Positions 46,639-57,752 of a stretch of 64,000 bases of DNA are shown piece after piece. Both the position numbers and the translations under genes were made by a program. The notes under the pieces are model-generated. The model made no database searches. It was not told where the DNA came from and saw nothing but the letters and a program-made list of their open reading frames with translations. The stretch spans positions 3,429,736-3,493,735 of the forward strand of contig JAWPML010000001.1 of NCBI GenBank assembly GCA_033344915.1, given 5' to 3'. The first letter of the stretch is position 1; each line of letters begins with the position of its first letter. Origin of the DNA: Acidimicrobiales bacterium (GTDB taxonomy: Bacteria; Actinomycetota; Acidimicrobiia; Acidimicrobiales; Aldehydirespiratoraceae).

Positions 46639-48432
46639 TCAACTCGCTTCGCCGAGGCCGCGCACCCAGGCCTCGTAGAGCTCGGCGTAGTGGCCGCCGG
46701 ACGCCACGAGTTCGTCGTGCCCGCCGAGCTCGGCGAGCCGGCCATCGGCGATGACCGCCACCCGATCGCAGCGTTCGCTGGTCGACAGCCGGTGGGCGAT
46801 CGCGATCACGGTGCGGCCGTCCATCAGTGTCTCCATGGCCGTCTCGACCATCGCCTCGGTCCCGGGGTCGACGGAGGACGTGGCCTCGTCGAGGATCAGC
46901 ACCGCCGGGTCGGCGAGCGCGGCCCGGGCCAGTGACACCAGCTGCTTCTCGCCGGCCGACAGGCGGCTGCCCCGCTCCTGCACCTCGGTGGCGAGTCCCT
47001 CGGGCAACGTCTCGAACCGCGGCAGCACCCCGATGCGGTCGAGCGCATCGCGGACGTCGGCGTCGGTCGCCTCGGGGCGGGCGACGCGGATGTTGTCGGC
47101 CACCGTCCCGGAGAACAGATAGCCCTCCTGGGGCACGACGACGATCCCGTCACGCAACGAGCGGATCGAGGCGTCGCGCAGGTCGGTCTCACCGAGCCGG
47201 ATCGTGCCGGCGGTGGGGTCGTAGAAGCGGGCGATGAGCTTGGCGAGCGTCGACTTGCCCGCACCCGTCGGTCCGACGAAGGCCACCCGCTCCCCGGCCG
47301 CGATCTCCAGGTCGACGTCCGACAACACCGGGTCACCGTCGCCGTAGGCGAACGAGACGCCGGTGAGCGTGATCGGCACCCGGGGGTCGAGCTCGACCGC
47401 GTCGGGCCGTTCGTCGATGTCGACCGGTTCGTCGAGCAGTCCGTAGAGCTTGTTGAGCGACGCCGTGGCCGACTGCACCATGTTGAAGAGCTGGCTCAGC
47501 TGCTGGACCGGCTCGAACATCGTCGACAGCAGCAGGATGAAGGCGACCACGGTGCCCAACGTGAGCTGCTCGTCGCGCACCATCCAACCGCCGACACCGA
47601 GGGCGAGGGCGGTGGTGGCGACACCGGCGAACTCGACGATCGGCAGGTACCAGCACTGGATCTTCACCGACGCCATGTGGGTGCGGTAGAGGTCCTGGTT
47701 GGCGACGGAGAACTTGTCGGACTCGACCTCCTCGCGGGCGAACGCCTGCACGACCCGCACACCACTGATCCCCTCCTGGAGCCCGGAGAGCGTGTCGGCG
47801 ATGCGGTCCCGAACGAGCAGATAGGCCCGGTTGGAGTCGCGCTGGAACTTCACGCTCGCCAGCCCGACGATCGGCATCGAGACGAGGCAGAGCAGCATCA
47901 GCTGCCACGACAGCAGCGTGAGCAGCACGGCGCTGCCCACCAGCAGGAACGCCGCACTGGTGAACATGATCAGACCGAACTGGACGAGCTCCTGGAGCGA
48001 GTCGACGTCGGACGTCATCCGGCTCACGAGCACGCCGGCCTTCTCCCGGTCGTAGAACGCCATCGACTGGTGCAGGAGGCGGGCGAAGACCCGGTTGCGC
48101 ATGTCGCGCAGGAAGTGTTCGCCCACGCGGGCGAGCAGGATGATCGCGAAGCGGAAGCACACATAGCTCAGCAGGGCGACGCCGACATAGAGACCGATCG
48201 CCAGGTTCAGCTGGGAAACGTCCTTCTTGGCGATGCCCTCGTCGATACCGCGGCGCACGAGCAGGGGGCCGGCCAGCAGCGTGAGGGTCCAGCCGAGGAG
48301 CAGGGCGACCGCGCCCGCCCCGCCCCGCCGGTAGGGGCGGGCGTAGGAGGCGGTTCGCCGGAGGACGGCGCCGGTACCGGCCACGCCGAGCTTGTCGTCG
48401 GCGGAGGTCCCGTGGCCCATCGACCACCCCAT
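46639..48432 (-). CDS. ABC exporter subunit, canonical Walker B
   Basis: This 597-residue half-transporter has six membrane helices (about 25-330) and an ATPase domain (340-597). The Walker A GPTGAGKST is at about 387, the signature is the altered LSAGEKQ near 491 and the Walker B is VLILDEATSSVD near 511. It begins at ATG 48432 in a TGATG overlap with its partner. The catalytic Glu is present but the signature is degenerate, the mirror image of the partner. The two therefore form a heterodimer with one active ATP site. It probably exports a lipid, peptide or drug. Confidence 0.9.
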   Translation of the reverse strand: MGWSMGHGTSADDKLGVAGTGAVLRRTASYARPYRRGGAGAVALLLGWTLTLLAGPLLVRRGIDEGIAKKDVSQLNLAIGLYVGVALLSYVCFRFAIILLARVGEHFLRDMRNRVFARLLHQSMAFYDREKAGVLVSRMTSDVDSLQELVQFGLIMFTSAAFLLVGSAVLLTLLSWQLMLLCLVSMPIVGLASVKFQRDSNRAYLLVRDRIADTLSGLQEGISGVRVVQAFAREEVESDKFSVANQDLYRTHMASVKIQCWYLPIVEFAGVATTALALGVGGWMVRDEQLTLGTVVAFILLLSTMFEPVQQLSQLFNMVQSATASLNKLYGLLDEPVDIDERPDAVELDPRVPITLTGVSFAYGDGDPVLSDVDLEIAAGERVAFVGPTGAGKSTLAKLIARFYDPTAGTIRLGETDLRDASIRSLRDGIVVVPQEGYLFSGTVADNIRVARPEATDADVRDALDRIGVLPRFETLPEGLATEVQERGSRLSAGEKQLVSLARAALADPAVLILDEATSSVDPGTEAMVETAMETLMDGRTVIAIAHRLSTSERCDRVAVIADGRLAELGGHDELVASGGHYAELYEAWVRGLGEAS

Positions 48433-50258
48433 CAGCCGGTCTCCTCGTCGCGATCGGCAGCGAGCACCTCGCGGTAGCGCTCGCTCGAGGCGAGGAGCTC
48501 GTCGTGCGTACCGCTGGCGACGATGCGCCCCTCGTCGAGCAGCACCACCCGGTCGGCGAGCGCGATCGTCGCTGGCCGATGGGCGATGACGATCGTCGTC
48601 CGCCGCTCCATCACCTCGCCGAGCGCGTCGCGGATCTCGTGTTCCTTGGTGGGGTCCACGGCGCTGGTGGCGTCGTCGAGGATCAGCACCCGGGGGTCCG
48701 CCAGGATCGCGCGGGCGATTGCGATGCGTTGCCGCTGTCCGCCGGAGAGCGAGTAGCCCCGCTCCCCGATCTCGGTGTCGTAGCCCTCCGGGAGCTCACG
48801 GATGAACTCGTCGGCCCCGGCGAGCACGGCCGCCCGGACGACCGTCTCGTGGTCGGCCTCGGGGTCGGCGAAGGCGATGTTGTCGCGGATCGACGACGAG
48901 AACAGGAAGGTCTCCTCGAACACGATGCCGACGGCCTTGCGCAGCTCCTGGCGGCGGATGTCACGCACGTCGATGCCGTCGAGCAGCACCGTGCCACCGT
49001 CGACCTCGTAGAACCGGGGCAGCAGTCGGGCGATGGTCGACTTGCCCGAGCCGGTGGATCCGACCAGGGCGACCGATTCGCCTGGTTCGATCGTGAGCGA
49101 GAGTCCCCGCAGTACCCCGGCACCGGTGTTCTCGTGGTAGTCGAAGTCGACGTCGCGGAACTCGACCCGGCCGAGGTCCTCACCCGTCGGCAGCGCGACG
49201 GGCGCGTCGACGTCGACGATCTGGGGCGCGGTACCGAGCACCTCGCTGATCCGGACACCCGCGGCGGCGGCTCGCTGTCCGTTCGCGACGATCATCCCCA
49301 GCATGCGCAGCGGCTGCACGAGCATGATCACGTAGATGTTGAAGCTGACCAGTTCGCCGACGGTCATCTGCCCGTCGAGCACCAGGTGACCGCCGTAGCC
49401 GAGCACGGTGATCAGGCCGATGTTGGGGAGGAGCTCCATCCCGGGCAGGTACCGGGCCCGGATGGTCGAGGACCAGATGCCGGCGTCGAAGACGTCGTCG
49501 GCTTCAGCCGAGAGCTTCTCGGCCTGGACCGGTTCGGATCCGAACCCTTTCACGACGCGCACACCGGAAACCGACTCCTCGACGACCGCGGCGAGTTGGG
49601 CGGACTCCTGTTGGACGCGCAGCACCGCCGGGTTGAGCTCCTGGGCGAACCGCTTGCCGAGCACGTTGACGAGCGGCAACGACACCAGGGCGAGCAGCGC
49701 CAGCAGGGGCTGGAGGATCAGCATGATCACGGTGACCGACGCGACGATCAGGAAGTTCGCGAACGTGAGCGGGACCAGCACGATGAAGTTCTGGAAGTGC
49801 TGGAGATCGGTGTTGCCCCGGCTCATCAGCTCGCCCGTGGCGTTGGCGTCGTGGAACGAGAAGTGGAGACGCTGGATGTGGGCGAAGATCCGGTCGCGGA
49901 GCCGGGCCTCGATGATCCGGGCGTTGCGGAACGCGATGTAGCGGCGGACACCGAGGAAGACCGCGGAGACGAGGCCGGCGCCGGTGATCGCGAGTGACCA
50001 CGGCAACAGGGAACCCCCGTCGCGAACCCCTCGGTCCAGTCCGAGCTGCACGAGGAGGGGGACGGCCACCCGACCGGCCGTCCACAACAATCCGGCGACC
50101 ATGCCGAAGGCGATCCAACGCGATTCCTCCCGGGCGGTGGATCCGATGAGCGCCCAGCCGGCGCGGCTCGATGAGTCGGTGGTGTCGCCGGTCGAGCGCA
50201 GTCGGTCGCCCGTCCCCTCCGGCGCGGTGGCAGTCAGCTCGAATCCCTCCCCACCCAC
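48432..50258 (-). CDS. ABC exporter subunit, Walker B with Asp replacing Glu
   Basis: This 608-residue half-transporter has six helices and a C-terminal ATPase domain. The Walker A GSTGSGKST is at about 399, the signature LSGGQRQ is canonical, but the Walker B is VLILDDATSAVD, with Asp in place of the catalytic Glu. It pairs with the downstream subunit as a heterodimer. The only reasonable start is GTG 50258, which begins two bases from the end of the hairpin at 50260. The first 40 residues are polar and poorly conserved. Confidence 0.88.
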   Translation of the reverse strand: MGGEGFELTATAPEGTGDRLRSTGDTTDSSSRAGWALIGSTAREESRWIAFGMVAGLLWTAGRVAVPLLVQLGLDRGVRDGGSLLPWSLAITGAGLVSAVFLGVRRYIAFRNARIIEARLRDRIFAHIQRLHFSFHDANATGELMSRGNTDLQHFQNFIVLVPLTFANFLIVASVTVIMLILQPLLALLALVSLPLVNVLGKRFAQELNPAVLRVQQESAQLAAVVEESVSGVRVVKGFGSEPVQAEKLSAEADDVFDAGIWSSTIRARYLPGMELLPNIGLITVLGYGGHLVLDGQMTVGELVSFNIYVIMLVQPLRMLGMIVANGQRAAAAGVRISEVLGTAPQIVDVDAPVALPTGEDLGRVEFRDVDFDYHENTGAGVLRGLSLTIEPGESVALVGSTGSGKSTIARLLPRFYEVDGGTVLLDGIDVRDIRRQELRKAVGIVFEETFLFSSSIRDNIAFADPEADHETVVRAAVLAGADEFIRELPEGYDTEIGERGYSLSGGQRQRIAIARAILADPRVLILDDATSAVDPTKEHEIRDALGEVMERRTTIVIAHRPATIALADRVVLLDEGRIVASGTHDELLASSERYREVLAADRDEETG

Positions 50259-50259
50259 C

Positions 50260-50293
50260 AGAATGGACAGGGGGTCAGACCCCTGTCCATTCT
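50260..50293. terminator. hairpin between glutathione peroxidase and ABC genes
   Basis: The inverted repeat agaatggacaggggg...cccctgtccattct has a tca-type loop and lies between the stop at 50305 and the GTG at 50258. Its centre, ggggtcagacccc, recurs inverted at 59429-59441. It may end the peroxidase transcript. Confidence 0.6.
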
Positions 50294-50304
50294 CGGAGGT
50301 GTCG

Positions 50305-50781
50305 TCAGCCCAACAGTGCCGGGATCTGTTCGGCGATCTCCTCGGGGGTCACCATCGGCGAGAAGCGGGCGACCACGTCGCCGTCCGAGTTCACGAGGAA
50401 CTTCTCGAAGTTCCAGGTGATGTCGGGGGTCTCTCCCTCGCCGGGCTGCTCCTCCTTGAGCCACTTGTAGAGGTCGGCGGCACCGTCGCCGTTGACCTCG
50501 ATCTTGGCGAACAGCGGGAAGTCGATGTCGTAGTTCTCGCTGGTGAACGCCCGGATCTCCTCGGCCGAGCCGGGCTCCTGGGCGCCGAACTGGTTGCACG
50601 GGAAGCCGAGCACCGAGACGCCGTTGTCGTCATGATGAAGCGTACGCAGACCTGCGTACTGAGGCGTGAGGCCTCAAGCGGAGGCGACGTTGACGATGAG
50701 GCAGGCGCCGTCGGCGAAATCGCTGAACGACACCTGATCACCCTCGAGCGACGCCATTTCGAACTCGTGGAACCGAGCCAT
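50305..50781 (-). CDS. selenocysteine-containing glutathione peroxidase (in-frame UGA)
   Basis: The gene starts at ATG 50781, with aaggag five bases upstream. The frame runs through a TGA (50676-50674, codon 36) and continues to a stop at 50305, giving 158 residues. On both sides the match to glutathione peroxidases is unbroken: ACLIVNVASA-U-GLTPQYAGLRTL, then VLGFPCNQFGAQEPGSAEE and ITWNFEKFLVN. The UGA stands exactly where the catalytic Sec or Cys lies. The tetrad partners Gln68, Trp123 and Asn124 are intact. A SECIS-like hairpin follows (50642-50659). The enzyme reduces peroxides with a thiol donor in the cytoplasm. A reader that stops at TGA would split it into two pieces. Confidence 0.9.
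50642..50676 (-). promoter_or_regulatory. bacterial SECIS-like element for UGA recoding
   Basis: On the coding strand the UGA begins a small stem (tgaggc / gcctca, loop ctcac). It is followed at once by the stem gtacgca / tgcgtac closed by the tetraloop GGTC (50642-50659). The apical part gcaGGTCtgc is the same as in the E. coli fdhF SECIS. The loop starts 21 bases after the UGA, within the bacterial range. Confidence 0.8.
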
Positions 50782-50853
50782 GGGTCTCCTTGTCAGGCTC
50801 CGGGACCGTCCCGGCGAGCCGACTGTACCGTCCCGACTCCCGCCATCCGCGTT

Positions 50854-50882
50854 GAGTTGTGGTCGTGTGGCAACCACAACTC
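50854..50882 (-). terminator. hairpin after the molybdenum hydroxylase operon
   Basis: The arms gagttgtggt and accacaactc are perfect over 10 bp with a 9-base loop. The hairpin lies between the end of the MoaD-like gene (50895) and the peroxidase start (50781), so it fits a terminator. Confidence 0.6.
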
Positions 50883-50894
50883 GGTTAAGAACGA

Positions 50895-51143
50895 CTAGCC
50901 GCCGGTGATGGGGATCAGGAAGTGGACGTCGGCGTCGGGGGGGACGGGGGCGAAGAAGGTGCCGCGAGGCTGGAGCTCGCCGTTGACCGCGAAGGACGAA
51001 CCCTCGCGCAGGAGAGGGCCGAGACCGGGGTGGGCGGCCTCGAGCGCGTCGATCACCTGACTGATGGTGGCGCCGTCCACATCCAGGACCTTCTCGCCGT
51101 CGGTGAAACGGGTGTGGCTGTCCTGGAGATGAACGGTTGCCAT
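50895..51143 (-). CDS. MoaD/ThiS-like sulfur carrier protein
   Basis: This 82-residue ubiquitin-fold protein ends in HFLIPITGG, the double glycine needed for adenylation and thiocarboxylation. FAVNGELQPRGTFFAPV is also typical of MoaD-like carriers. It follows the three molybdenum-hydroxylase genes by 16 bases and probably supplies sulfur for the molybdopterin or for the enzyme's sulfido ligand. A ThiS-like role is less likely in this context. Confidence 0.85.
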   Translation of the reverse strand: MATVHLQDSHTRFTDGEKVLDVDGATISQVIDALEAAHPGLGPLLREGSSFAVNGELQPRGTFFAPVPPDADVHFLIPITGG

Positions 51144-54780: not shown

Positions 54781-54845
54781 CCCCTCCCGTTCTGGGTGAA
54801 CGGGGGCGCGGTTTCCAGCCCTATGTTCACCCAGAACGGGAGGGG
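54781..54845. terminator. perfect 21-bp inverted repeat after the TauD-family gene
   Basis: The arms are 54781-54801 and 54825-54845, perfect over 21 bp with a 23-base loop. The right arm ends two bases from the TauD stop (54847). It can end that operon before the divergently spaced molybdenum-hydroxylase promoter. Confidence 0.7.
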
Positions 54846-54846
54846 G

Positions 54847-55881
54847 TCAGGCCTTGGTGCGCTTCGCGCTCCAGTGCGACGTCGCTCCCGCGGCCTGGAA
54901 CCGGTCGGGGCGGTCCTCGGGTCCGAGGATCTCGGTCGCCAGCCAGAGCCGCTTGAGCCAGCGGACGCGACCGGCTTCGGGATCGTCCTCGTAGGCCTTG
55001 CGCCCGTGGAGCACGTGGTAGTTGTTCACGAATTGCATGTCGCCCGGCTCGAAGGTCATCTCGACCCGATTGTCGCGGTCGTAGATGTGTGCGTCGTAGG
55101 CATCCATCGCCGCTCGCTGGCGGTCGCTGAGCCGGGGGGCATCGTCATGGCGCTGCGACGCCTCGATGTAGGGGCGGATGTAGCGGACGAACAGTCGGTC
55201 GCCGTGCTCGGAGAAGACCGGCACGTGGTAGAAGGGCGTGCCGCCCTCCGCCTGTTCGCCGCGGAAGTCGTAGGGAAGCCCCGCGAACAGCTCGCCGGCG
55301 AGCTCCGGGTCCTCGTCCACCAGCTTGTTGTAGGCGCCGACCGCGTTCGCGACGAGGCTCTCACCGCCGGACACGCCGGGGTCGAGGCACATGAGTCCGA
55401 CCAGGTCGGAACCGTCGGAGTGGAACGCCTGGGCGACGCCACCGAGTTCGTTGCCGCGGGCCGTGGGGTCGTCGAGCCGCTTGCCCTGATCCTTCACATC
55501 ACCGAGGAGGTGGCCCTTCACGTTCTGGGGCCACGGCACACCGAGGTGCAGACCGATGCCCCAGTACATCCACGAGGCGTCCTCGAAGCCCACCCGCTCG
55601 ACCGGCAGGGCGGAGATGCGCTGGAAGCCGCGGCCGTTGATCAGCTCCTCGGCGAGACCGGCGAGGACCGGCGACAACGTCGGCAGCGGGAAGTGCTCCT
55701 TGCGGACATCGAGCACCTCGTCGGTGTGGGTCCGCGCGACCGCGAGCGCGTCCTCGAGCTCGGCGATCTCCGCGGCGGACAGCCGATACGTCCACGCTTC
55801 GGCATCGGCGATGTCGGCGGCGGTCCAGTTGGCGTGGGTCTCGAGCGGGCGGACCTCGTCGGCGGTGAGAGTGGTGGACAT
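54847..55881 (-). CDS. TauD/TfdA-family 2-oxoglutarate dioxygenase
   Basis: This 344-residue protein has AFHSDGSDLVGLMCL, with the HxD iron ligands, FVNNYHVLHGRKAYED, with the distal His, and GRVRWLKRLWLATE, with the 2-oxoglutarate Arg. FQRISALPVERVGFEDASWMYWGIGLHLG is the usual N-terminal part. It begins nine bases after the deacylase stop, so the two are co-transcribed. Taurine is not necessarily the substrate, as the family is broad. Confidence 0.9.
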   Translation of the reverse strand: MSTTLTADEVRPLETHANWTAADIADAEAWTYRLSAAEIAELEDALAVARTHTDEVLDVRKEHFPLPTLSPVLAGLAEELINGRGFQRISALPVERVGFEDASWMYWGIGLHLGVPWPQNVKGHLLGDVKDQGKRLDDPTARGNELGGVAQAFHSDGSDLVGLMCLDPGVSGGESLVANAVGAYNKLVDEDPELAGELFAGLPYDFRGEQAEGGTPFYHVPVFSEHGDRLFVRYIRPYIEASQRHDDAPRLSDRQRAAMDAYDAHIYDRDNRVEMTFEPGDMQFVNNYHVLHGRKAYEDDPEAGRVRWLKRLWLATEILGPEDRPDRFQAAGATSHWSAKRTKA

Positions 55882-55890
55882 CGTGGGCTC

Positions 55891-57609
55891 CTAGGCGGGG
55901 GCGGGTTGGGCGCCGCGGATCAGGCGACCGGGAAGCGCCCCGGTCTCCTCGCCGGAGGCGTAGGTCTCGATGCCGGCGACGATCGTGTGCAGGTAGCCGT
56001 CGGCCCGCTGGAGGACTCGCCGACCACCCGCCGGCAGGTCGTAGGCGAGCTCGGGACCGCGAGCGGACAGGTTCTCGAAGTCGATCACGTTGAGGTCGGC
56101 GCGATAGCCGGGAGCGAGCACGCCGCGGTCGTGCAGGCCGACCGTGCGCGCGGTGTCGCGGGCCTGGCGCTGCACGAGGAACTCGACCGGGATGCGCCCG
56201 TCGGGGCGCTCACGGCCCCAGTGCTGCAGCAGCGTCGTCGGGAACGAGCCGTCGCAGATCGTGCCGACATGGGCACCGCCGTCGCTCAGCGCGGGCACCG
56301 TGAAGTCGTGGGTGAGCAGCTCGCGGGTGCCGTCGAGGTTCATCTGGCCGTAGTTGGTGAACGGCAGCCACAGCATGTTCGTGCCGCCGTGCTTGCACAG
56401 CAGGTCGAGGGCGAACTCCTGGGCCGTGACGCCCGCTTCGGCGGCGCGACGCACGACCGTCTGGTCGGCGGGCGGCTCGTAGTAGGGCCGCTCCCCCATC
56501 TCGAACATGATCTCGAACTTCTCGATCAGGCCGCCGCCGACGAGGTTCTTGTCGGTGCCACCGGCGCTCTCGAGCAGGCGGGCCCGCCGATCGGGATCCT
56601 GGAGGGCGGCAACCCGTTCGGCCGGCGCGAGGTCGGCGACCTCCCGCCACACCGGGTTGCGCATGAACGGATTCAGCGTGCACTCGAAGCCGAGGAGGAC
56701 ACCGATGGGTCGCACCGGGCACTGGCCCGTGATCTGCAGACCGTCGGACCGAGCCGCTTCGATCTTGCCGAGCAGATCCTGGTGGAAGTCGCCGGACTTC
56801 GGGCTCTCGACGATCGTGAAGGAGAGAGGCCGGCCGGACACCGAGCACATGTCGCGGAACATCTGGAACTCGCGGTCACGGTCGACGAAGTCGCTGACGA
56901 GCTGGAAGACGCCCGTGCCCGTCGTGCCGACCGCTTCGGCGATCCCGACGAGCTCCTCGGCGGCGGCGGTGAGCGTCGGCGTGAAGTCGCCGGTCGACGT
57001 CTTGTGGTTCGACGTACGACTGGTCGAGAAGCCGAGGGCGCCGGCCTGGATCGCCTCGGCGGCGAGGCGGCCCATCTCACCGATGTCGTCGGCCGTCGCG
57101 TCCTCGCGGTTCGCGCCCCGCTCCCCCATCACGTGGAGACGGAGCGCGCCGTGGGGAACCTGCGTCGCGATGTCCATGTCCTTGGGGCCGTCGCACGCCT
57201 CGAGATAGTCGGCGAAGGAGTTCCAGCCCCACTGGAGTCCTTCGTGCAGCGCCGCGCCCGGGATGTCCTCCACCCCCTCCATCAGCTCGACGAGCTTGTT
57301 GTGGTCGGCGTTGTGCACCGGCGCGAACCCGACGCCGCAGTTGCCGAACACCACCGTGGTCACGCCGTGCCAGCTGGACGGCTGCATGCGGCTGTCCCAC
57401 GTGGCCTGACCGTCGTAGTGGGTGTGGATGTCGACGAAGCCCGGCGCGACGAGGGCGCCGTCCGCGTCGATCTCGCGGGTGGCCGAGCCGCTGACCGAGC
57501 CGACCTCGGTGACCACGCCGTCGCGCACGGCGACGTCCGCGGTGCGCAGCGGTGCGCCCGTGCCGTCGGCAACAGTGCCGCCCCGGATGATGAGATCGTG
57601 ATCGGCCAT
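55891..57609 (-). CDS. N-acyl-D-amino-acid deacylase-family amidohydrolase
   Basis: From ATG 57609 (gggg upstream) the protein has 572 residues; 58 further open codons upstream are not conserved. GFVDIHTHYDGQATWD holds His62 and His64 and GNCGVGFAP holds Cys91, the metal ligands typical of D-aminoacylases. LSDGGAHVGTICDGSFPTTLLQHWGR carries the C-terminal His and Asp. The closing PGYRADLNVIDFENL is usual in the family. It hydrolyses N-acylated D-amino acids or related amides. Confidence 0.9.
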   Translation of the reverse strand: MADHDLIIRGGTVADGTGAPLRTADVAVRDGVVTEVGSVSGSATREIDADGALVAPGFVDIHTHYDGQATWDSRMQPSSWHGVTTVVFGNCGVGFAPVHNADHNKLVELMEGVEDIPGAALHEGLQWGWNSFADYLEACDGPKDMDIATQVPHGALRLHVMGERGANREDATADDIGEMGRLAAEAIQAGALGFSTSRTSNHKTSTGDFTPTLTAAAEELVGIAEAVGTTGTGVFQLVSDFVDRDREFQMFRDMCSVSGRPLSFTIVESPKSGDFHQDLLGKIEAARSDGLQITGQCPVRPIGVLLGFECTLNPFMRNPVWREVADLAPAERVAALQDPDRRARLLESAGGTDKNLVGGGLIEKFEIMFEMGERPYYEPPADQTVVRRAAEAGVTAQEFALDLLCKHGGTNMLWLPFTNYGQMNLDGTRELLTHDFTVPALSDGGAHVGTICDGSFPTTLLQHWGRERPDGRIPVEFLVQRQARDTARTVGLHDRGVLAPGYRADLNVIDFENLSARGPELAYDLPAGGRRVLQRADGYLHTIVAGIETYASGEETGALPGRLIRGAQPAPA

Positions 57610-57752
57610 GGCGGTCCCCCTGGGTTCGGTGACCATGATGGCAGCCACGGGCGGTCCCGCCCAGACCGCCCCCGCGGGCGGCTCGCGAGGTGCTTGACTG
57701 GGACGCGCGGGCATGACTGAAGATCGGTGTCGAACACGCCGATCAGGGAGCT

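Follow-up and report, generated by a model that had tools for sequence, protein, structure and literature searches.

A probable selenocysteine-containing glutathione peroxidase with a near-invariant coding-region hairpin and no resolving cysteine in Acidimicrobiia

Introduction

Bacterial glutathione peroxidases (GPx) that contain selenocysteine (Sec) are already known. According to the accessible portions of the sources, they have been in print since 2005, when five bacterial Sec-GPx sequences were reported from the Sargasso Sea (PMC1088965), followed in 2006 by one from Treponema denticola (PMC1794560) and in 2008 by 40 entries in the GOS table (PMC2398784), and they are covered by reviews of 2022 (PMC9312934) and 2026 (PMC13188914). 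In the same portions, these proteins resemble the one described here in belonging to PF00255, in their UxxT motif (here U36-G-L-T39) with a peroxidatic Sec, and in having the SECIS element within the coding region. They are attributed there to T. denticola or to unassigned marine sequences, while Acidimicrobiia, an invariant hairpin and loss of the resolving cysteine are not mentioned; the GOS marine sequences may well include members of the clade described below. No report of an Acidimicrobiia Sec-GPx branch, and no mention of a clade-wide loss of the resolving cysteine or of a Sec mycothiol peroxidase, was found in the literature search, which is weak evidence given that subscription literature lay mostly outside its range and that sources were accessible in part.

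Other described enzymes invite comparison with this locus. Mammalian GPX4 (Sec46) shares the GPx fold, with TM scores by query length of 0.86-0.90 for the GPX4 chains among the best 50 structural matches of the predicted window protein. We take GPX4 to have the same Sec-Gln-Trp-Asn site, to lack a resolving Cys at the corresponding place and to rely on an outside thiol for reduction of its oxidised Sec. It differs from the window enzyme in that the SECIS of the latter lies in the coding region rather than the 3' UTR and would be served by the bacterial SelA/SelB route, and in that the bacterial host seems to use mycothiol. For Cys-containing GPx, a 2021 study states, in its accessible part, that bacterial GPx possess both cysteines (PMC8614756), unlike the Sec clade described here, which lacks the resolving one. 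Similarly, the accessible part of another study describes actinobacterial GPx that function as mycothiol peroxidases (MPx; PMC9241694), and the MPx of Corynebacterium glutamicum and Streptomyces olindensis are likewise GPx-family proteins of actinobacterial hosts with a mycothione reductase. The S. olindensis enzyme carries a peroxidatic and further cysteines (C38, C66 and C84; PMC9241694), whereas the window enzyme has Sec36, C27 and C62. It departs from the MPx cysteine pattern in that its peroxidatic residue is Sec36 and in that Thr80 stands at the place of the resolving Cys of Cys-GPx. It may work like an MPx, though it is not classed as one.

The gene and its product

The window, meaning the whole 64,000-nucleotide stretch of DNA that was analysed, belongs to a genome assembled as a single 4.48 Mb contig. 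The Sec-containing GPx gene occupies positions 50305..50781 on the minus strand, from an ATG at 50781..50779 to a TGA stop at 50307..50305 (158 codons plus stop); a first-pass annotation of the sequence had given the correct coordinates and left the strand unstated. A putative Shine-Dalgarno-like AAGGAG, read from the sequence, lies 4 nt 5' of the ATG (50786..50791, minus). With the in-frame TGA of codon 36 (50674..50676, minus) read as U, the frame yields MARFHEFEMASLEGDQVSFSDFADGACLIVNVASA-U36-GLTPQYAG...LLG, a product of 158 residues followed by the TGA stop. That this is one frame broken by a single TGA, as the annotation had proposed, is supported by the match to the Pfam GSHPx profile (PF00255), which spans the codon and reaches 124.5 bits (cut-off 27) over profile positions 1-108 of 108. 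A chance frame was excluded on the strength of this score across the UGA codon and of the single TGA being codon 36 in 17/17 loci of the class. The truncated 102-residue reading that the annotation had foreseen does appear, as a GTG-started ORF at 50305-50613, in the mechanical ORF list (which is not gene-caller output); mechanical ORF calling truncates the Sec-GPx gene, and the active site is lost.

Membership of the read-through product in the glutathione peroxidase family is confirmed, as far as sequence can do so, by profile, active-site tetrad and predicted fold. Solved GPx-family structures cover residues 1-157 (best E 3.2e-38), and the PDB search returned 41 distinct sequences at E <=0.001, whose names are those of GPx, GPx-like proteins, GPX4-based designs or Hyr1. 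The AlphaFold2 prediction of the window protein (pLDDT 91.1, pTM 0.89) has GPx-family entries or designs as its best 50 PDB matches, with TM scores by query length of up to 0.92. The Sec/Cys-Gln-Trp-Asn tetrad was positioned according to what we take to be the GPX4 site; U36, Q68, W123 and N124 are all present, as the annotation had held, and are invariant across the 17 aligned Sec-GPx. Its placement of codon 36 at the Sec/Cys position of the family also holds, as 17/17 TGA loci and 30/30 Cys loci align there. Besides U36, the only cysteines of the window enzyme are C27 and C62.

The codon that precedes the UGA also has a bias. Codon 35 (window 50677-50679, minus) mostly encodes Ala or Tyr and ends in T in the Sec loci (GCT in 8/17, TAT in 4/17), and the residue before the catalytic position in the Cys relatives is mostly Lys (24/30). 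The bias at codon 35 is possibly a context effect on read-through.

A SECIS-like hairpin behind the UGA

A SECIS-like hairpin, GUACGCA-GGUC-UGCGUAC, lies at 50642..50659 (minus) and is supported by its fold, the alignment of the 17 loci, invariance at synonymous sites and a wider set of loci. It starts 14 nt after the UGA and forms a 7-bp stem with a GGUC loop, at a UGA-to-loop distance of 21 nt, with a folding energy of -9.75 for the consensus and -18.9 kcal/mol over 45 nt for the single sequence. The bSECIS rules, as given in the accessible part of the 2026 review, specify a loop of 3-9 nt, an upper stem of 4-16 bp, a minimum free energy of -7.5 or lower, G at the first two positions of the loop and a distance of 16-37 nt from the UGA (PMC13188914). 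Compared by hand rather than with bSECISearch, the loop, stem, spacing and energy all agree with these published values, in keeping with the hairpin that the first-pass annotation had noticed. The 18-nt hairpin occurs exactly once in the window, with 0 occurrences expected in shuffles, and its own complement is the second listed window match, with 2 mismatches.

Conservation of the hairpin is visible at synonymous sites. The codons CAG TAC GCA GGT CTG, encoding QYAGL, are identical in 17/17 Sec loci, and their mean third-position entropy is 0.0 in these loci versus 1.04 in 30 Cys-GPx loci, which had been chosen for their top scores in the class search and not at random; over the remaining stretch the values are 1.19 and 1.32, respectively. 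Part of this contrast arises because codon +7 specifies Ala in the Sec set and, in most of the Cys set, Glu or Thr, and because the Cys loci span more families. A wider set was obtained by scanning genome contigs for the pattern TGA + G-x-T-P-Q-Y-[A/E/D]-G-[L/F], which returned at least 120 stretches. Letters within codons +1 to +9 are set by this pattern, but third positions are unconstrained in codons +7 to +10. When the 17 loci were combined with the first 80 pattern loci, without L092 (91 unique stretches), third-letter entropies at codons +7 to +10 were 0.5, 0.5, 0 and 0.21, versus mostly 1.3-1.9 around them.

Across the 7 pairs of the 17 loci there were no both-sided changes, a U-A pair changed to U-G in 6 sequences, and one pair was broken in 2/17. 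Among 124 unique hairpin regions drawn from 135 loci, with L092 and L194 left out, all 7 pairs were kept in 103 and one pair was broken in 21, of which 13 belong to a second core type; the sole compensatory change (C-G to U-A) was in L102. Covariation is weak because the hairpin hardly varies, and its conservation is enough for it to be used as a probe for further Sec-GPx genes. The second core type has CGGGUU (CGGGCU in one case) instead of AGGUCU and was seen in 13 Sec-GPx genes from proteobacterial records (L097, L100, L127, L130, L134, L142, L148, L150, L153, L158, L177, L189 and L191), as if there were two SECIS forms within one protein clade.

A search of Rfam with the 2 kb that surround the gene gave 6 matches, none above its gathering score, and no SECIS at E values up to 10. 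A model built on the GPx hairpin recovered the GPx gene itself from its own genome at E 9.9e-20, with the next match at E 0.197. The selD hairpin of the same genome, described below, was absent from the 11 genome matches of this model, which is therefore no general selenoprotein finder. A point of comparison for the core itself is the fdhF gene of E. coli K-12, which has an identical 10-nt core, GCAGGUCUGC, behind its UGA. The UGA-to-GGUC spacing is 18 nt in fdhF and 21 nt in the GPx gene. The two elements also differ in architecture, since the GPx hairpin consists of a simple stem of 7 bp and the fdhF SECIS has a longer lower stem and bulges, and the encoded proteins differ as well. The GPx hairpin lacks a bulged U that we take to be important for the SECIS of fdhF.

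Selenocysteine machinery

The first-pass annotation had implied that the organism possesses the Sec machinery and had proposed a search of the genome for selA, selB, selC and selD. All four were found in the same genome, each above its curated cut-off. In the profile search, selB was identified at 3836293-3837348 (minus) with 275.7 bits against a cut-off of 242.25; the whole SelB protein scored 289.0 bits and contains the SelB winged-helix domain (PF09107, at 50.5 bits) as well as the beta-barrel of SelB (at 28.2 bits). Seven more matches to the selB model in this genome fell below the cut-off and are presumably other GTPases. Adjoining selB is selA at 3837374-3838474 (minus), with 384.8 bits against a cut-off of 267.9. 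A tRNA-Sec gene at 3858804-3858895 (minus) scored 64 bits, the sole one of 8 matches above the gathering score of 47, and ARAGORN called the same locus as tRNA-SeC with anticodon tca. In the control genomes, matches above threshold were obtained in 5/14 for the tRNA-Sec model, 2/14 for selB and 1/14 for selA, so the tRNA-Sec threshold is not a strict one. Finally, selD lies at 1225971-1226897 (minus; 359.8 bits) and has an in-frame TGA of its own (HGAGUGCKLAPGEL). The selD gene of this genome is itself a selenoprotein gene, and shows a hairpin with a GGUCG loop, 32 nt from UGA to loop.

With these components, SelB carrying Sec-tRNA-Sec would bind the GGUC hairpin behind UGA36, and Sec would be inserted at this codon in place of termination. 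UGA read-through occurs in some bacteria, and the codon might instead be read as another amino acid, either as Trp through a code change or by near-cognate read-through. However, the GPx gene itself stops at TGA and the neighbouring genes encode full-length families under table 11, the tRNA with the UCA anticodon scores as tRNA-Sec and is accompanied by selA, selB and selD, and the codon falls at the Sec/Cys position of the family, all of which makes decoding as another amino acid very improbable. Decoding of UGA36 as Sec, giving a GPx-type enzyme, is the reading that we hold with high confidence.

Distribution among relatives

A GPx match above the cut-off was found in 128/296 genomes of the class, and in 17/128 of these, the present genome included, the match contained one TGA. 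This was the catalytic codon in 17/17 loci, and all five searched genomes of the organism's own family were among the 17 carriers. The comparison of relatives at this codon, which the annotation had recommended, returned either TGA or Cys. Its statement that Cys is the residue of most bacterial relatives agrees with the picture in this class, where the TGA form occurs in 17 of the 128 GPx-bearing genomes. All 17 TGA genomes had a selA match at E 3.9e-111 or better; among the matches listed, selA was above the cut-off in the present genome and 14 others of the 17, and in 200/296 class genomes overall. The co-occurrence of selA with the TGA-containing GPx has a hypergeometric probability of 0.001 when genomes are treated as independent, relatedness being ignored. 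In a search of 396 genomes of the phylum, 90 had an above-cut-off GPx and 6 had the TGA form, all in the same class; it was found in 0/60 of the above-cut-off genomes outside this class.

The pattern scan extended this range. When the loci were read, 118 of the at least 120 were GPx frames of the same Sec kind, five of them cut by stretch ends, and at least 5 of the 118 came from genomes already among the 17. By title, the records were from Acidimicrobiia, other Actinomycetota, Gammaproteobacteria, Myxococcota/Deltaproteobacteria and one 'Spirochaeta' bin, and they include a cultured relative with the TGA gene, Ilumatobacter nonamiensis (L095). A maximum-likelihood tree started from 127 rows, made up of the 17 Sec loci, 30 Cys loci and the first 80 of the at least 120 pattern loci. 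Eight rows were dropped: L092 as divergent, L112 and L155 as cut by stretch ends, and 5 as duplicates of the 17. In the resulting tree of 119 rows, one branch splits 89 Sec from 30 Cys proteins (97/94; 96% of 200 bootstrap trees), to be read with the tree midpoint-rooted, the bootstrap unsettled and the Cys rows drawn from the organism's own class alone. The Cys proteins nearest to the Sec group are L022, L023 and L025, and the window protein groups among those of Acidimicrobiia. As a phylogeny, this fits a single origin of Sec-GPx with later spread between phyla, and the occurrence in the class searches places Sec-GPx firmly in Acidimicrobiia.

These comparisons also bear on whether the TGA could be a lesion, that is, a TGC or TGT Cys codon mutated or misread in a gene that is dead or truncated. 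A single substitution from TGT or TGC gives a lone TGA, and Cys relatives are many. Against this stand the same TGA in 16 other class genomes, which refutes the explanation for the group, and the 118 of at least 120 pattern loci that are of the same Sec-GPx kind (at least 5 of them repeating genomes of the 17). In addition, the frame is conserved past the TGA, the hairpin is kept at synonymous sites, the resolving Cys has been lost along with the catalytic one and the Sec genes are intact. The chance that the window gene is a pseudogene or a sequencing error is close to negligible, and Sec decoding is retained as the preferred reading.

Two further groups of TGA-bearing sequences were seen at the margins of these searches. 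L092, from a Byssovorax bin, and L194, from Polyangium sp. y55x31, are the two pattern loci outside the 118 and represent a second, diverged myxobacterial GPx type with the TGA at the same place (VNTAA-U-GYTPQYAGLQ), without FPCNQ and without QEP, and by eye both have a different GGUC hairpin about 29 nt after the UGA. L092 was considered as a decayed gene, and the second copy in L194 speaks against this. PF00255 matches too weak to reach the cut-off, each containing a single in-frame TGA, were seen in the related genomes G153, G036, G091, G223, G020 and G617; these are perhaps peroxiredoxin- or thioredoxin-like selenoproteins.

Resolving cysteine and reductant

The Sec and Cys enzymes differ in a second residue. 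The resolving Cys (in F-C-x-x-x-Y) is present in 30/30 Cys-GPx and in 0/17 Sec-GPx, by alignment and recount, and the window enzyme has Thr80 where the Cys-GPx hold it. Among the at least 120 pattern loci it was found in 0/117 scorable proteins, L092, L155 and L194 being unscorable. The product would be a GPX4-like peroxidase whose Sec36-Gln68-Trp123-Asn124 site acts on hydroperoxides and passes through a state with oxidised selenium. As the resolving Cys is absent, return of this selenium to the reduced state should depend on an external reductant, for which a low-molecular-weight thiol is the likeliest candidate. In this organism the thiol would probably be mycothiol, with mycothione reductase to recycle it. 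Because the Sec clade has lost the resolving Cys together with the catalytic one, sister enzymes can be compared to test the trade-off between Sec and Cys in this family.

Candidate thiol genes were sought with models for MshC, mycothione reductase and glutathione synthetase. The mycothione reductase of the present genome scored 650.6 bits with NF005884 (cut-off 501) and 610.8 bits with TIGR03452, under the cut-off of 635.65. Across the Sec genomes, the best TIGR03452 matches were at 490-611 bits in 17/17, with 0/17 above the cut-off and the next group at <=268, and the best MshC-like matches were at 405-434 bits in 17/17, none of them reaching the cut-off of 485.1, and a lower group scored <=311. 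Because the MshC and TIGR03452 models gave matches at E 0.001 in 14/14 control genomes (above the cut-off in 1), only the score gaps are informative for these two models. The present genome encodes two MshC-like proteins, with 408 and 432 bits for the MshC model versus 333 and 359 for the cysS model; one of them also passes the cysS cut-off (359.1 versus 340) and is a candidate cysteine-tRNA ligase. An apparent in-frame TGA in the MshC-like match of G002 was rejected, as it lies just before the start codon. Glutathione synthetase (TIGR01380) gave matches in 8/17 Sec genomes, above the cut-off in one, G248, which is of the organism's own family; the present genome reached 74.2 bits, far under the cut-off of 299.05.

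Mycothiol is favoured as the likely physiological reductant because a mycothione reductase is present. Reduction by thioredoxin, another redoxin or glutathione has points in its favour: in the accessible part of the MPx study, actinobacterial Cys-GPx use thioredoxin as well as mycoredoxin/mycothiol (PMC9241694), the Sec clade extends to records of proteobacteria and myxobacteria, so that its donor may not be tied to mycothiol, and G248 has a glutathione synthetase above the cut-off. However, the resolving Cys of redoxin-linked GPx, as described in the accessible part of PMC8614756, is missing in 17/17 Sec proteins, the mycothione reductase of the present genome is above one of its two curated cut-offs, and the sole glutathione synthetase model searched stayed at 74.2 bits there. 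A Sec peroxidase with one of these other donors is on this evidence somewhat improbable, though a serious contender. The fuller reading, a Sec mycothiol peroxidase that is a GPX4-like enzyme with one selenium and no resolving Cys, reduced directly by mycothiol through a selenyl-mycothiol intermediate in a host apparently without glutathione, is put forward tentatively; it is weakened because one of the MshC-like proteins passes the cysS cut-off and because, of the glutathione genes, the search covered glutathione synthetase alone. If true, such an enzyme would be a non-glutathione counterpart of GPX4, in a clade whose records, from Acidimicrobiia, Gammaproteobacteria and Myxococcota, share a single near-invariant SECIS. 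A Sec-GPx in a cell that apparently uses mycothiol would also offer a direct test of how Sec-GPx work.

Gene neighbourhood

Upstream of the GPx gene, on the same strand, are an 82-residue ThiS-like ORF and a molybdopterin hydroxylase set (MoCoBD, Fer2 and FAD-binding subunits), and downstream lies an ABC transporter gene (48432-50258), followed by a second ABC-like ORF at 46639-48432, read from the ORF list. No operon that includes the GPx gene was evident from the neighbouring genes at the locus. An inverted repeat (GAATGGACAGG...CCTGTCCATTC; 50261..50292, no strand assigned) lies directly beyond the GPx stop, at a distance of 12 nt, and has no T run; its full sequence is GAATGGACAGGGGGTCAGACCCCTGTCCATTC, and the arm GAATGGACAGG is unique within the window. 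Promoter and terminator scanning of 50100-51000 called nothing, the inverted repeat included, and from its sequence the repeat is a possible end-of-transcript hairpin. Elsewhere in the window, long ORFs lie opposite likely genes, for example one of 974 aa at 54796-57720 (plus), and these look like the shadow frames of GC-rich DNA.
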